From Aliidiomarina sp. (lineage in GTDB: Bacteria; Pseudomonadota; Gammaproteobacteria; Enterobacterales; Alteromonadaceae): DNA of 64,000 nt. Position 1 is the first letter of the stretch. Every line of letters starts with the position of its first letter. Positions 20,628 to 25,699 of the stretch are shown here, in pieces. The notes below the pieces were generated by a model, which was not told the DNA's origin, made no database searches, and worked only from the letters and a program-made list of their open reading frames with translations. The stretch covers positions 62,001-126,000 of the forward strand of contig NZ_JAIUMR010000003.1 in the NCBI RefSeq assembly GCF_022565475.1, written 5' to 3'. Both the position numbers and the translations under genes were made by a program.

Positions 20628-20803
20628 GATCTCTCTTCTCTGTTTATTCTTTGTCTTCAGCTGGGCCAGGGCCCGAAAAAAATTCCAGTCGCTATTTTAC
20701 ACGATTCTCGCCACGATGAAACGTCTGATTGATGGTTCTATGGTTGGCTGTCGACTATTATTCGTTCATAATACCCGTCCTTCCGGAGTAATTGAGGTTC
20801 GTA

Positions 20804-21454
20804 GTGAGTAGCCAAAGCGTACATTTTCAATCCGCACGATTTATTACAAGTGCACCCGATATTCGTCATTTACCTGCAGACGAAGGCTTGGAAGTCGCTT
20901 TTGCCGGCCGTTCAAACGCAGGTAAATCAAGTGCATTGAACGTCCTGACACGCCAAAAGAGTTTGGCGCGGACCAGTAAAACGCCAGGCCGAACGCAACA
21001 AATTAATGTGTTTAGTTTGGACGAAGACCGTCGTTTAATCGATTTACCGGGTTATGGTTTCGCCAAAGTGCCTTTGGCAATGAAGCATAAATGGCAAGAA
21101 GCGCTTTCGGAGTACCTCCAAAAGCGTCAATGTTTGCGCGGTTTAGTGGTGCTGATGGATATTCGTCACCCTATGAAAGATTTGGATCAAGAGCTGATTC
21201 ATTGGGCGGTTTCCAGCGAGTTGCCGGTATTGGTTGTGCTGACCAAAGCAGACAAACTCAATAGTGGTGGGCGCAAAGCCACACTGATGAAAATTCAGGA
21301 AGCATTACCGGGATTTAATGGCGATGTGCAAGCCATCACCTTTTCGTCATTGAATAAGTCAGGCTTGCCGGATTTAGAGCGAGTGCTCCAAGGTTGGTTT
21401 ACTTTACCCACAGACGAAGGAAACGACACAGCTGATCCTTCTGCTGCAGAGTAG
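20804..21454 (+). CDS. engB: Ribosome biogenesis GTP-binding protein EngB (YihA/YsxC)
   Basis: A 216-residue essential GTPase of the TrmE-Era-EngA-YihA class, involved in 50S subunit maturation. All G motifs are visible: G1 [13 protein letters not shown]2 Thr in [12 protein letters not shown]3 [12 protein letters not shown]4 TKADKLN and G5 FSSLNKSG. I place the start at the GTG at 20804 because GAGG lies 6 nt upstream; the longer frame would begin at a TTG at 20792 inside that ribosome site. The C-terminal acidic tail ([13 protein letters not shown]) is not conserved. Confidence 0.94.
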
Positions 21455-22505: not shown

Positions 22506-24314
22506 TTACGCTTGTTCGGCTAATTTCCGCTGAATGTAATCGTGAATTTGTTGTTCAAGTGTCGCCAACGGAATACTTCCATTCTTTAACACTTCATCAT
22601 GGAACTCTCGTAAATCAAAGTCTGCACCAAGGGCTGCTTCTGCTTCCGCGCGCAAACGTTTGATGGTGAGTTCACCGAGCTTGTAGGATAGCGCTTGACC
22701 CGGCCAGCTAATGTAGCGGTCAATCTCGGTATTGACGTTGTGCAGTGACAGGGCCGTATTGCTGCCTAGGAACTCAACCGCTTGATCGCGGGTCCAGCCC
22801 ATGGCATGCATACCCGTGTCGACCACCAGACGTGCAGCCCGCCACATTTCATAGGTTAAGCGACCAAAATTGCTATACGGGTCTTGATAAAATCCTGTTT
22901 CAAGGCCGAGATATTCCGCATACAAACCCCAACCTTCACCAAACGCCGAAATGTAGGTTGAACGGCGATAGCCGGGCACATTCTCCATTTCCATCGCCAG
23001 TGCAATTTGTAAGTGGTGGCCAGGAACACCTTCATGCAAGGTTAATGCTTCGAGTTCATACAGAGGCCGAGTTTCAACGGCATAGGTGTTGACCCAGTAT
23101 TCACCAGCTTCATCATCACGTGATGGTCCGGAATAACGGCCTTGGGTGTAATTCGGTGCGATTTCGGCCGGTACCGGTACAACACCATAAGGCGTTCGTG
23201 GTAAATGCCGGAAAAGCTGCGGCAACACATGGTCGGCACGTTTGGCTATGTAAGCGGCTTCCTTGAGCAACTCTTCGCCGGTTTCGACGTAAAACTGCGG
23301 GTCAGTGCGGAGGAAGTGAATAAACTCAGCAAAGGTTCCTTCGAATTCAACCTCGGCAATTACTTCTTCCATTTCGGCACGAATCCGTGCCACTTCGGCG
23401 ACGCCAATTTCATGAATTTCTTCGGGTGTTAAGTCCAGCGTTGTGTAGTGTTTGGCGCGATTGGCATAAAATGCTTCGCCGTTCGGCAAGTTAGTGGCCG
23501 CAATGTCTTCGCGAGCGTTTGGCACATATTCATCGGCGAGAAAATCATGGAAATCCTGCAGTGCTGGATTGACGAGTGTAGCAATCACGGTTTGCGCTTC
23601 AACCTCGAGGTCGTTCAATGCCTCGCCACTGACATGTCGATTGGCTTGGGTAATTGGGCGATAAAAAATGCTTTCCGCTGGATCAACAGTGACATAAGCG
23701 AGTACACCTTGAGGGAAATTGCGGAGAACGACACTGGGTTGGGATATACCGCGCTCTAAACCTTCGCGCATATACGCGGTTTGTTGTGCTAGCCAAGCAG
23801 GGATATCACTGAGTAACTGCAAATAGCGCTGATAGTCTTCGGTACCGTTAAAGCGCACTTGCTGCGGCAGGCGTGCAATGGTGTTGTGCGGGCCGGTCTC
23901 GTTGGTCAGCGGCATGAGGTGCATATTAAATTCGTACTGCGATAATTGGTTACGCAGGGCGTACATCAACATGTCACGGTTAATTTGATTTTCCGCACTG
24001 AGACGATTGCCATCGATGGCGGCCAGCTGGGTGTAAAATTCTTTGCGTGTCTCGTAACGTGTAGCGAGCGCTTCGGGCGAGATATCATTGAGGCGGTGAC
24101 CAGCTCGACCACTGTCATCGCGCGCAATTAAGTATTGCCCTTGGTTGTACTCCCAAGCGCGATCGGCCAACTGGGTAAAATAGTGATCCGCAGATTGCGC
24201 GGCTGCGGAAGCTGCCGGTTGATTCGTCGTATTGGCGTTCGGTGCGGTACTTTGACAGCCAGATAAGGCTAGCAAGACGGCGCTGGCGACTAGGATTGAG
24301 GCGATTTTACGCAT
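22506..24314 (-). CDS. DUF885 family lipoprotein, probable peptidase
   Basis: A 602-residue exported protein. The N-terminus MRKIASILVASAVLLALSGC is a lipoprotein signal with lipobox LSGC; a Gln/Ala/Asn linker follows. The DUF885 domain (about 60-600) contains LTLHEGVPGHHLQIALAMEM, a His/Glu-rich motif that looks metal-binding, and EGWGLYAEYLGLE. Many DUF885 proteins are annotated as putative zinc-dependent peptidases; the substrate is unknown. I start at the ATG at 24314: AAAGG lies 7 nt upstream, and this start gives a clean signal peptide. An in-frame ATG at 24320 is too near that site, and longer frames add unlikely sequence. Confidence 0.88.
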   Translation of the reverse strand: MRKIASILVASAVLLALSGCQSTAPNANTTNQPAASAAAQSADHYFTQLADRAWEYNQGQYLIARDDSGRAGHRLNDISPEALATRYETRKEFYTQLAAIDGNRLSAENQINRDMLMYALRNQLSQYEFNMHLMPLTNETGPHNTIARLPQQVRFNGTEDYQRYLQLLSDIPAWLAQQTAYMREGLERGISQPSVVLRNFPQGVLAYVTVDPAESIFYRPITQANRHVSGEALNDLEVEAQTVIATLVNPALQDFHDFLADEYVPNAREDIAATNLPNGEAFYANRAKHYTTLDLTPEEIHEIGVAEVARIRAEMEEVIAEVEFEGTFAEFIHFLRTDPQFYVETGEELLKEAAYIAKRADHVLPQLFRHLPRTPYGVVPVPAEIAPNYTQGRYSGPSRDDEAGEYWVNTYAVETRPLYELEALTLHEGVPGHHLQIALAMEMENVPGYRRSTYISAFGEGWGLYAEYLGLETGFYQDPYSNFGRLTYEMWRAARLVVDTGMHAMGWTRDQAVEFLGSNTALSLHNVNTEIDRYISWPGQALSYKLGELTIKRLRAEAEAALGADFDLREFHDEVLKNGSIPLATLEQQIHDYIQRKLAEQA

Positions 24315-24649
24315 ACACATACCTTTGCTTATTCTGTGTTTGAGGTTGCCGACATTTTGCAACGGATTGACCACAGTTGCCACCCTGAAAAATCTATTAC
24401 TTTTGCTATAGTTTATGTCGGAGTTATCACAAAAAAATGAAAAAAACTTTCCGAAAGATTGATTTTCAGGTTGCAAAGTCGGCGAAAATTCGTAATCTAG
24501 GGGACAGAAAAGCAAGGGGAAGTGAGTCGTCACCAACCAGCACAAGTCAGGAATAGCGCGGTTTTGGCTCGAAAAGTTTACAGATTAATGAACATAAAAA
24601 TAAAATTGTCTGAAATAAACTAGTGACTTGTTGTAATTTTGTGATAGGC
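24315..24649. other. AT-rich gap upstream of the candidate csrC-like RNA
   Basis: About 335 bp without a gene. It should hold the DUF885 promoter (minus strand) and the promoter of the downstream RNA (plus strand). Repeated A and T tracts dominate. I looked for the UvrY/GacA inverted box (TGTAAG...CTTACA) and found no good match. Confidence 0.5.
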
Positions 24650-24654
24650 TCTCA

Positions 24655-25036
24655 CTACAACGCTCATCGAGCGGAAATTAATAAGTCGTTAACAAAGAAA
24701 AATAAGAAAAGCGACCAAAGGGAATAAAAATACGCCAGGAGGCGAAAAACATTTTGGGAAAGCACTGCGCAACGAGTTGTTGCTCTAAATGCAGTATCCT
24801 TAACAGCGTGTAGCTCACCAATAATAATGAAAAGTGTTGCAGTCTGTTATTAGCAAAAGGTTTTTGCGAATTAAAAATTCTTGCTGTGAAAAAGGCGTGC
24901 CGCAAGGCGCGGATAAAAAGAAGCAAGTTCACAAGGAAGAACAATAATAATGTAGGAACTAGCGACAATCGTTCTCGAATTCACCCTGGGGGGGTGTGCG
25001 GGTTCAAATCAAGGCGATGATTTCATCGCCTTTTTT
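24655..25036 (+). ncRNA. csrC: Candidate CsrB/CsrC-family regulatory RNA
   Basis: A highly structured noncoding region directly upstream of yihI, the place of csrC in E. coli. Perfect hairpins in order: CGCTC/GAGCG (24661-24673), CGCC-AGGA-GGCG (24733-24744), nested ACTGC/GCAGT and GCAAC/GTTGC (24764-24795), GCAAAA/TTTTGC (24853-24867), GAATT/AATTC (24868-24880), GTGCC-GCAA-GGCGC (24897-24910), GTTC-ACAAGGAA-GAAC (24927-24942), CACCC/GGGTG (24982-24996), then a terminator. Seven GGA triplets occur, two of them in hairpin loops, the arrangement CsrA recognises. Seven is near chance for this length, so the CsrA link rests on loop placement and synteny. The 5' end is undetermined. Confidence 0.5.
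25013..25036 (+). terminator. Rho-independent terminator ending the candidate RNA
   Basis: GGCGATGA and TCATCGCC form an 8-bp inverted repeat with almost no loop (effectively 6 bp with loop GATTTC), followed by TTTTTTATTTT. No coding region precedes it on the plus strand for 2.5 kb, so it must end an untranslated transcript. Confidence 0.88.
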
Positions 25037-25093
25037 ATTTTCTTCTCGACAGTTATCCATCTCTTAATGCTGAACACTCCAGAATACGTTATC

Positions 25094-25157
25094 CTATAGG
25101 GTAGTTTGCATGTTGCTGACTATTCGTATTGTCCATTGTTGAATTTGCTATAGGGTA
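25094..25157 (+). repeat. Direct repeat CTATAGGGTA upstream of yihI
   Basis: The 10-mer CTATAGGGTA occurs at 25094-25103 and 25148-25157, the second copy ending 11 nt before the yihI ATG. The copies could be two -10-like elements or binding sites of one regulator. Confidence 0.4.
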
Positions 25158-25168
25158 AGCCTCATTTT

Positions 25169-25699
25169 ATGACGCGTATTAAAAAGTCTCGCAAACCGGG
25201 TCCGCTCGCGCCGCGTAAAGTCGAGCGGCCGCAAGATGCAGCTGCCAAGCCAGCGCCGAAGTCGAAAGAAAAAGGTAAGGGGCAGAAAGCCGGTAGTCGT
25301 TATGCTGTGAGTCAGCAAACGAAATCGTCAACGGCAGCAAAAAATCAACGAGACGCGCGCTTAGGTTCGAAAAAACCAATTGCATTGGGTGCTGCTGCGG
25401 CAAAGGCCATGACGCCTGAACAAGAGTTTCGGCAATTAGAAAATGACCGGAAGTTACAAGACTTGTTGGTCAAACTTGAAGCGGGTTACGTACTGAATAA
25501 AATCGACCAGCACTATGTCGACGAAAAACTGGATCGTTATCAAGAGCTGGCTGCGCAACTTGGTATCGACTTAGACGCGTTCGATGAAGACGACGACAAC
25601 GACGCCAACGAGGAATATGAAAGCCGCGGTGAAGTATTCAGCAGCGTTGATGAATTTGACTTCGATTTCGATGACGAAGACGACAAAAAAGAGGTGTAG
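25169..25699 (+). CDS. yihI: Der GTPase-activating protein YihI
   Basis: A 176-residue soluble protein. The N-terminal 60 residues are Lys/Arg/Pro-rich and basic; then RDARLGSKKPIALG parallels the E. coli YihI block and is followed by a helical segment (LENDRKLQDLLVKLEAGYVL) and a strongly acidic C-terminus (DDDNDANEEY, DFDFDDEDDKK). Known role of YihI: stimulates GTP hydrolysis by the ribosome-assembly GTPase Der and slows 50S maturation. Its location after engB and a structured RNA fits E. coli gene order. The ribosome site before ATG 25169 is weak (GGGTAAG at 11 nt). Confidence 0.88.
   Translation: MTRIKKSRKPGPLAPRKVERPQDAAAKPAPKSKEKGKGQKAGSRYAVSQQTKSSTAAKNQRDARLGSKKPIALGAAAAKAMTPEQEFRQLENDRKLQDLLVKLEAGYVLNKIDQHYVDEKLDRYQELAAQLGIDLDAFDEDDDNDANEEYESRGEVFSSVDEFDFDFDDEDDKKEV

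Follow-up and report, generated by a model that had tools for sequence, protein, structure and literature searches.

A structured RNA upstream of yihI in Aliidiomarina is probably a csrC descendant of altered character

The window analysed here, a 64,000-nt stretch of an Aliidiomarina genome (G000), contains a structured, terminator-ended RNA directly 5′ of yihI. The gene order around it is cytochrome c4 (−, recognised by its CHG motifs), engB (+), EamA (+), DUF885 (−), the RNA (+), yihI (+) and DUF2489 (+). The 3′ neighbour, yihI, encodes the Der GTPase activator (25169–25699, +; PF04220, E = 2.9e-25). The far side of the csrC interval is marked by engB, or yihA (20792–21454, +; Pfam MMR_HSR1); the EamA and DUF885 genes stand between it and the RNA. 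Searches with the window engB located engB beside the interval in relatives, at an identity of at most 78%. As a preliminary description of this DNA had stated, csrC of E. coli lies between yihA and yihI, and we recovered it there. The window RNA, located between engB and yihI on the yihI strand, thus occupies the position of CsrC.

We infer that the RNA spans positions 24505–25036 (+, ~530 nt), from the promoter to the end of the T-tract. The 5′ end had previously been placed at 24655, which is too late. A sigma-70-like promoter, recognised by consensus only, lies at 24471–24498 (+), with the −35 element TTGCAA (24471–24476) separated by 16 nt from the −10 element TAATCT (24493–24498). The pattern TTG-N3-N16-TAnnCT was present 5′ of the RNA in 21/24 Idiomarinaceae loci, and near variants were seen by eye in G005, G014 and G086; given this conservation, the RNA should start earlier than 24655, at about 24505. 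At the other end, the intrinsic terminator AAGGCGATG-ATTT-CATCGCCTT and its T-tract occupy 25011–25036 (+; stem 25011–25032), and the T-tract ends 133 nt 5′ of yihI. The absence of coding sequence before the T-tract was borne out, as the + strand of the RNA interval holds no ORF of at least 60 aa; the − strand carries a 96-aa ORF with a TTG start. The RNA is thus intergenic, non-coding and ended by an intrinsic terminator, as expected of CsrB and CsrC. It is also structured, as had been proposed. The fold of 24655–25045 had a minimum free energy of −109.6 kcal/mol (z = −4.45) and that of 24505–25036 a z of −2.96, with 0/100 shuffles as good in either case. We regard it as almost certain that the window encodes a real RNA here.

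The RNA was found 5′ of yihI in 17/17 Aliidiomarina genomes (13 by blastn at E ≤ 0.001, four by reading) and in the seven Idiomarina-type genomes read, namely that of Idiomarina aquatica (L020) and six more from two genera with small genomes. Its length from the −10 element to the T-tract ranges from 283 to 691 nt. A similar terminator stem is present in all 24 RNAs, with the variants GGCGGTG in G001 and G003 and GGGTGATG in G016. Among the matches listed for open PMC articles, we found nothing on a yihI-upstream RNA in Idiomarina or Aliidiomarina and no csrC at yihI outside enterobacteria; open PMC searches for Aliidiomarina together with CsrA, and for csrC, yihI and Shewanella together, returned none.

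The first conserved element, module 1 (24720–24744, +), has the form GGGAATAAAAATA-CGCC-AGGA-GGCG. Its N-GCC-AGGA-GGC-N hairpin is preceded by a GGA and an A-rich spacer, so that two GGA triplets (24721 and 24738) lie 17 nt apart. The hairpin itself, CGCC-AGGA-GGCG at 24733–24744, had been pointed out before and is present in the sequence. It recurs in 14/17 Aliidiomarina and 3/7 Idiomarina-type RNAs, with the upstream GGA also present in 13 and 3 of them, respectively; it is absent from G001, G003, G008, Idiomarina aquatica, G043, G086 and G118. Both GGAs are thus kept in 16 of the 17 RNAs having the hairpin, spaced by 17–18 nt. This spacing is within the bridging range of a CsrA dimer, given as 10 to 63 nt with an optimum above 18 in PMC7652899. 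In an alignment of 16 of the 17 sequences (G011, identical to G009, was omitted), the covariation of module 1 was 0.337, against 0.124 when shuffled and at most 0.129 when slid, with six cells showing compensatory changes. Two pairs changed on both sides, a number reached by 121/500 shuffles and therefore unexceptional. The element GGGAAAGC follows at 24756–24763 (+), as read in the window; by eye, some relatives, as well as families f6, f15 and f21, have elements like it after their AGGA hairpin. We also considered a small ORF whose Shine-Dalgarno sequence would be AGGAGG in the hairpin and rejected it, since the relatives, inspected by eye, have no consistent ATG after the hairpin.

Module 2 (24880–24927, +) is formed by an outer stem CUUGCU/AGCAAG and an inner stem CGUGCC-GCAA-GGCGCG, which enclose a purine internal loop made of GUGAAAAAG (24886–24894, +) and GAUAAAAAG (24912–24920, +). 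The GCAA cap is the GNRA-capped stem of the preliminary description. Module 2 was identified in 12/17 Aliidiomarina and 0/7 Idiomarina-type RNAs. Changes on both sides were seen in all nine counted pairs; 98.1% of the cells were paired, and the covariation was 0.845, against 0.362 when shuffled and at most 0.172 when slid; one of the five measures, pair types, was unexceptional (117/500 shuffles). We also observed that the facing purine strands, GnKAAnAAG, vary little between the covarying stems. Judged by this pattern, module 2 looks like a pocket for a ligand or a protein, and we know of no counterpart. Modules 1 and 2 both look to be under structural selection.

The hairpin GTTC-ACAAGGAA-GAAC (24927–24942, +), read from the sequence and likewise described earlier, carries a GGA at 24935. 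Its pairing was not found in the relatives inspected by eye; the GGA context recurs, since the pattern CAnGGAAGA occurs in 9/17 Aliidiomarina RNAs, by eye in seven of the nine at the place of this hairpin. The idea that the stems are conserved in relatives thus holds for modules 1 and 2, which covary, but not for the GTTC/GAAC pairing or for the GNRA cap, which varies on a conserved stem. Two linkers are of the (AAN)n type, AATAATAAT (24819–24828, +), which resembles ligands of the Hfq distal face, and AAGAACAATAATAAT (24937–24951, +). The box AGCGACAATCG (24961–24971, +) has a counterpart aligned at this place in relatives, and the pattern YGACAA occurs, anywhere in the RNA, in 23/24 Idiomarinaceae. 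A CACCC-...-GGGTG hairpin, read at 24982–24996 (+), precedes the terminator; relatives show a hairpin of other sequence at this place, by eye.

In other Alteromonadaceae, the c4-yihI interval also contains an RNA with a promoter-like site and a terminator. Among 32 yihI-upstream loci, 27 RNAs were delimited (L039 manually, the other 26 by pattern); L031, L032, L035, L038 and G111 were omitted from the counts. The conserved core was aligned for 23 of 24 core sequences (L026 was excluded as a near-copy of L024; the pattern found no core in L041, L044 and G122). In this core, 18/26 pairs changed on both sides, and the covariation was 0.346 against 0.195 when shuffled. The covariance model of the core, R1, matched four of the five omitted loci. 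We ran it over 394 genomes of the order and obtained matches at E ≤ 0.01 in 104, 25 inside Alteromonadaceae and 79 outside; at this threshold, whole-genome searches of G000, G010 and G041 gave no match. The Alteromonadaceae RNA family described by R1 is well supported, and Rfam 15 gave no family over the cut-off at the interval in the 20 Alteromonadaceae loci scanned.

Of the 79 genomes beyond Alteromonadaceae, 52 were checked, and in 34 of these the R1 match lay in the engB/c4-yihI interval: f6 16/16, f15 5/5, f16 1/1, f18 7/9 and f21 5/11. In none of the ten genomes of f2, f3, f8, f9 and f11 did it do so. An f18 genome encodes EngB, YihI and HemN that are 98–100% identical to those of E. coli, so the f18 interval RNAs are csrC itself. 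Families f6, f15 and f21 might be Shewanella-, Aeromonas- and Vibrio-like. A methyltransferase gene lies between the RNA and yihI in these three families, as in many of the other Alteromonadaceae loci. GGA-rich RNAs were observed in the c4-methyltransferase interval of f6 (L177–L180, L182, L183, L185–L191, L193) and f21 (L196, L216, L217, L223, L224). Full-length sub-threshold matches of Rfam CsrC fell on the RNA in 5/28 loci, L150 and L039 among 19, and L177, L178 and L188 among the nine scanned beside E. coli. The last three belong to f6, where 0/6 scanned loci passed the cut-off; over all loci scanned, only E. coli csrC and Spot 42 (in L160) did so at the RNA. The f6 and f21 RNAs are likely csrC orthologues without a model. 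With GGA-enriched, Csr-like RNAs encoded here in several families, and csrC in E. coli, the csrC-position reading of the window locus gains support, and we take the engB/c4-yihI interval to be the old csrC locus.

The composition of these RNAs is graded. We compared motif counts with dinucleotide shuffles; the segments used for f6, f15 and f21 were the R1 match plus 180 nt upstream, with no promoter delimitation. GGA was enriched in f6 (186 vs. 112 expected), f21 (73 vs. 44) and the 27 Alteromonadaceae RNAs (186 vs. 127), weakly so in f15 (52 vs. 45; 19/200 shuffles), and not in the Idiomarina-type (36 vs. 33) or the 17 Aliidiomarina RNAs (110 vs. 121). Per 100 nt, GGA falls from 5.7 in csrC through 4.5 (f21), 3.8 (f6), 3.0 (f15), 2.6 (Alteromonadaceae) and 1.6 (Idiomarina-type) to 1.4 (Aliidiomarina). 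The window RNA, counted over 540 nt from the −10 element, has 10 GGA vs. 8.1 expected (48/200 shuffles reach 10); the earlier remark that seven GGA triplets are close to chance was correct for the shorter span from 24655, where 5.4 are expected and 51/200 shuffles reach seven. GGA in hairpin loops was above chance in Aliidiomarina as a group (35 vs. 19.3, 0/200 shuffles), with 2 vs. 1.4 in the window RNA alone (80/200 shuffles).

Along the series of falling GGA, the repeat AA[TC]AA[TC]AA climbs from 0 to 0.7–1.2 per 100 nt. It is absent from csrC and f21 and at expectation in f6 (1 vs. 1.0), and it reaches 7 vs. 0.5 in f15, 39 vs. 2.7 in Alteromonadaceae, 26 vs. 1.2 in the Idiomarina-type RNAs and 56 vs. 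3.4 in Aliidiomarina. A period-4 control was flat (23 vs. 25 in Aliidiomarina) except in f6 (18 vs. 6.7). For AAN runs with any third base, the contrast was softer than for AAY: f6 22 vs. 6.6, f21 6 vs. 2.2, f15 16 vs. 5.3, Alteromonadaceae 70 vs. 22 and Aliidiomarina 84 vs. 27. Since AAN runs occur also in the GGA-rich f6 and f21 RNAs, their presence is compatible with CsrA binding; plain A-rich spacing might also account for them.

E. coli CsrC (RF00084) lies in the same interval and on the same strand as the window RNA, and both end in an intrinsic terminator with a GGCGA stem. The CGCCAGGAGGCG hairpin is likewise common to csrC and the RNAs of the window clade. The clade RNAs differ in their low GGA density, in having AAY repeats and in being about twice as long as csrC; the window RNA also has no Rfam match. 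R1 matched the window with 21.9 bits (E = 0.0017 in 64 kb) and csrC with 28.6 bits. With the terminator removed, it matched neither the window RNA nor E. coli csrC, and two Aliidiomarina loci gave 12.2 and 5.9 bits. The R1 matches thus depend on the terminator, and we dropped them as proof of homology. Wider-family profile HMMs of the promoter and the 3′ box placed 1/24 and 0/24 Idiomarinaceae top hits correctly; in training the latter, the Idiomarina-type boxes of I. aquatica, G043 and G116 had been taken at the wrong place by the pattern. An HMM of the AGGA hairpin was not used, because its top hits, although inside the RNA in 11/24 cases, more than position alone gives, scored at most 3.7 bits, which is noise level; five near relatives share one match at the 5′ end.

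With R1 failing outside the terminator and the HMMs negative, the case for descent from csrC is made by position, strand and architecture together with the graded series, the two RNAs being alignable only in the terminator. On these grounds, we consider it probable that the window RNA descends from csrC. An unrelated RNA might instead have seized the csrC interval in an ancestor of Idiomarinaceae, the likeness then being one of position and a common type of terminator. The lack of homology outside the terminator is what such a replacement would leave, and csrC has no clear counterpart of module 2 or the YGACAA box. Nevertheless, strand, neighbour and AGGA hairpin are the same, f15 and Alteromonadaceae have AAY linkers too, and GGA content changes by grades with no jump; we find a replacement rather unlikely. 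Because the sequences of sRNAs that antagonise Csr are usually not conserved, so that GGA motifs serve to find them (PMC11882849), descent among them is hard to trace. The window RNA is a csrC-locus RNA that probably descends from csrC and has changed in character.

The AAY linkers suggest what this change may be. According to PMC7987339, the distal face of E. coli Hfq prefers (A-A-N)n, ChiX lost its competitiveness without its AAN motifs, and ChiX-type sRNAs also use a U-tailed terminator; the window RNA ends in such a terminator too. The window RNA shares its (AAN)n motifs with the class II Hfq sRNAs ChiX and MgrR and with CrcZ. From its letters, it has what is expected of a class II Hfq sRNA, namely (AAN)n, a U-tailed terminator and an Hfq encoded in the genome. 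Class II Hfq sRNAs and CrcZ differ from it in locus, GGA sites and module 2. For CsrC of Salmonella, PMC2515195 gives no enrichment on Hfq, with 63 reads in the control and 64 with Hfq.

The RNA could accordingly be an Hfq sponge like CrcZ, with functional AAN linkers and GGA sites that are mere relics. The strong excess of AA[TC]AA[TC]AA in the 17 Aliidiomarina RNAs, beside a period-4 control at expectation, fits this account, as do a single weak CrcZ match on the L029 RNA (E = 0.19) and the need of ChiX for its AAN motifs and for the proximal face of Hfq in competing for Hfq (PMC7987339). Relic sites would hardly explain why both GGAs are kept in 16/17 RNAs having the module 1 hairpin, or why that hairpin covaries. 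Moreover, the AAN runs, which the GGA-rich f6 RNAs also have, may serve as structural spacers. We hold a pure Hfq sponge to be improbable.

The opposite account, a classical CsrB/C sponge that has merely diverged and titrates many CsrA dimers like E. coli CsrC, is less probable still. The preliminary description proposed a diverged CsrB/C-type RNA; the csrC position and the structure stood, whereas a present-day sponge did not. Rfam, where a search for CsrB, CsrC and Rsm families had been suggested, lent no support: no covariance model scored over the cut-off in the 64-kb window, and no Csr family matched in 24300–25200 at E up to 10. The GacA box has the consensus TGTAAGN6CTTACA in PMC3171408. 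As observed before, no such UvrY/GacA box lies near the RNA (none in 24300–25200 with at most three mismatches; 15 vs. 19.8 expected in the whole window). Because GGA enrichment, an Rfam score and a GacA box are all lacking here, we do not class the window RNA as CsrB/C.

A further point against the sponge account is the coexistence of a true CsrB. Classical CsrB RNAs lie 5′ of tadA in five Aliidiomarina genomes (L088 in G005, L097 in G006, L083 in G009, L084 in G011 and L086 in G014), so that 5/17 carry both RNAs. Like the csrC-locus RNA, they are intergenic and terminator-ended, at another locus, with a conserved GACCAGCCCGC terminator region; the four counted have 12–14 GGA in their best 250 nt. 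The Rfam CsrB model scored four far below its cut-off and missed that of G006. Similarly, 16 RF00018-like RNAs of Alteromonadaceae, at another locus, have ~20 GGA each and no AAY enrichment, unlike the clade RNAs. In the other 12 Aliidiomarina genomes, G000 included, we found no CsrB at tadA. A strong Csr RNA elsewhere, which had been named as counting against the Csr reading, is therefore seen in the genus but was not found in G000 itself. A search of G000 with a model of tadA-CsrB (R2) gave weak matches, the best two overlapping long ORFs, and we rejected these.

That no CsrB was found in G000, together with CsrA matches in 17/17 genomes, the csrC position and the excess of loop GGA in Aliidiomarina, is what speaks for the sponge. 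G006, G009, G011 and G014 have one CsrA match and the other 13 genomes at least two. G000 encodes both CsrA (two matches) and Hfq, and the csrC-locus RNA may be its last remaining RNA of Csr type, although a CsrB elsewhere may have gone unrecognised; the locus flags genomes that have CsrA yet no recognisable CsrB. UvrY searches (NF007018) gave response-regulator matches in 17/17 genomes with 0/17 over the cut-off, which may be tuned to enterobacteria; Idiomarina is listed with GacS and GacA in PMC7366521. With GGA at background, a sponge of high capacity nonetheless appears quite improbable.

Least credible is a role as the yihI 5′ leader or attenuator, since despite the short same-strand distance to yihI a methyltransferase gene intervenes in f6, f15, f21 and many Alteromonadaceae loci and the terminator stem is kept in 24/24 RNAs.

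We are thus somewhat inclined to a remodelled csrC descendant, a CsrA-poor and probably Hfq-binding RNA, as the best explanation of the whole. A sigma-70-type promoter of its own would drive such an RNA, and its intrinsic terminator would end it. It would keep a single bipartite CsrA-type site, formed by an unpaired GGA 17–18 nt from an AGGA-loop hairpin, at which one or few CsrA dimers would probably bind with low capacity. The unpaired AAU/AAC linkers and the U-tailed terminator would supply both Hfq contacts of class II sRNAs, which is why the RNA probably binds Hfq in this scheme. Module 2 would offer a conserved fold to some ligand, and the presumed direction of change is from a csrC sponge to a CsrA-poor RNA. 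Taken singly, the predicted CsrA contact seems to us evenly balanced between kept and lost, and the predicted Hfq contact plausible but on the doubtful side. More tentative still is the possibility that the csrC locus is an ancient gene for a regulatory RNA that exchanged its protein partner. The RNA would be a CsrA sponge in Enterobacteriaceae and their relatives, a mixed GGA and AAN RNA in Alteromonadaceae and, in Idiomarinaceae, an (AAN)n RNA that binds Hfq and keeps a single relic CsrA site. If true, one orthologous gene would have been rewired from one global RNA-binding protein to another. With a series that begins at csrC of E. coli and reaches RNAs at background GGA, the locus makes it testable whether a sponge RNA can exchange its protein.

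Several minor observations concern the same RNAs. At least two CsrA matches occur in 12/12 Aliidiomarina genomes without tadA-CsrB and in 1/5 with it (Fisher p = 0.0021, uncorrected for shared ancestry). Module 2 is present in exactly these 12 genomes; as the tadA-CsrB carriers are the five without module 2, the split probably follows the tree. Pf3, a Csr sRNA of Pseudoalteromonas fuliginea with 9 GGA, binds CsrA in EMSA (PMC11882849). The G111 c4-locus RNA, which might be the same gene, also has 9 GGA. In L245 (~1440–1660, reverse complement; G015:C8:27400–27502, −), we observed a cluster of intergenic GGA hairpins with 8 GGA per 200 nt and no clear terminator, possibly a further Csr RNA in a genome without tadA-CsrB. 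Finally, a GACGTC...GACGTC palindrome lies ~150–200 nt 5′ of tadA-CsrB in several loci (L083, L088, L097), and is either the terminator of the upstream gene or a regulator site.
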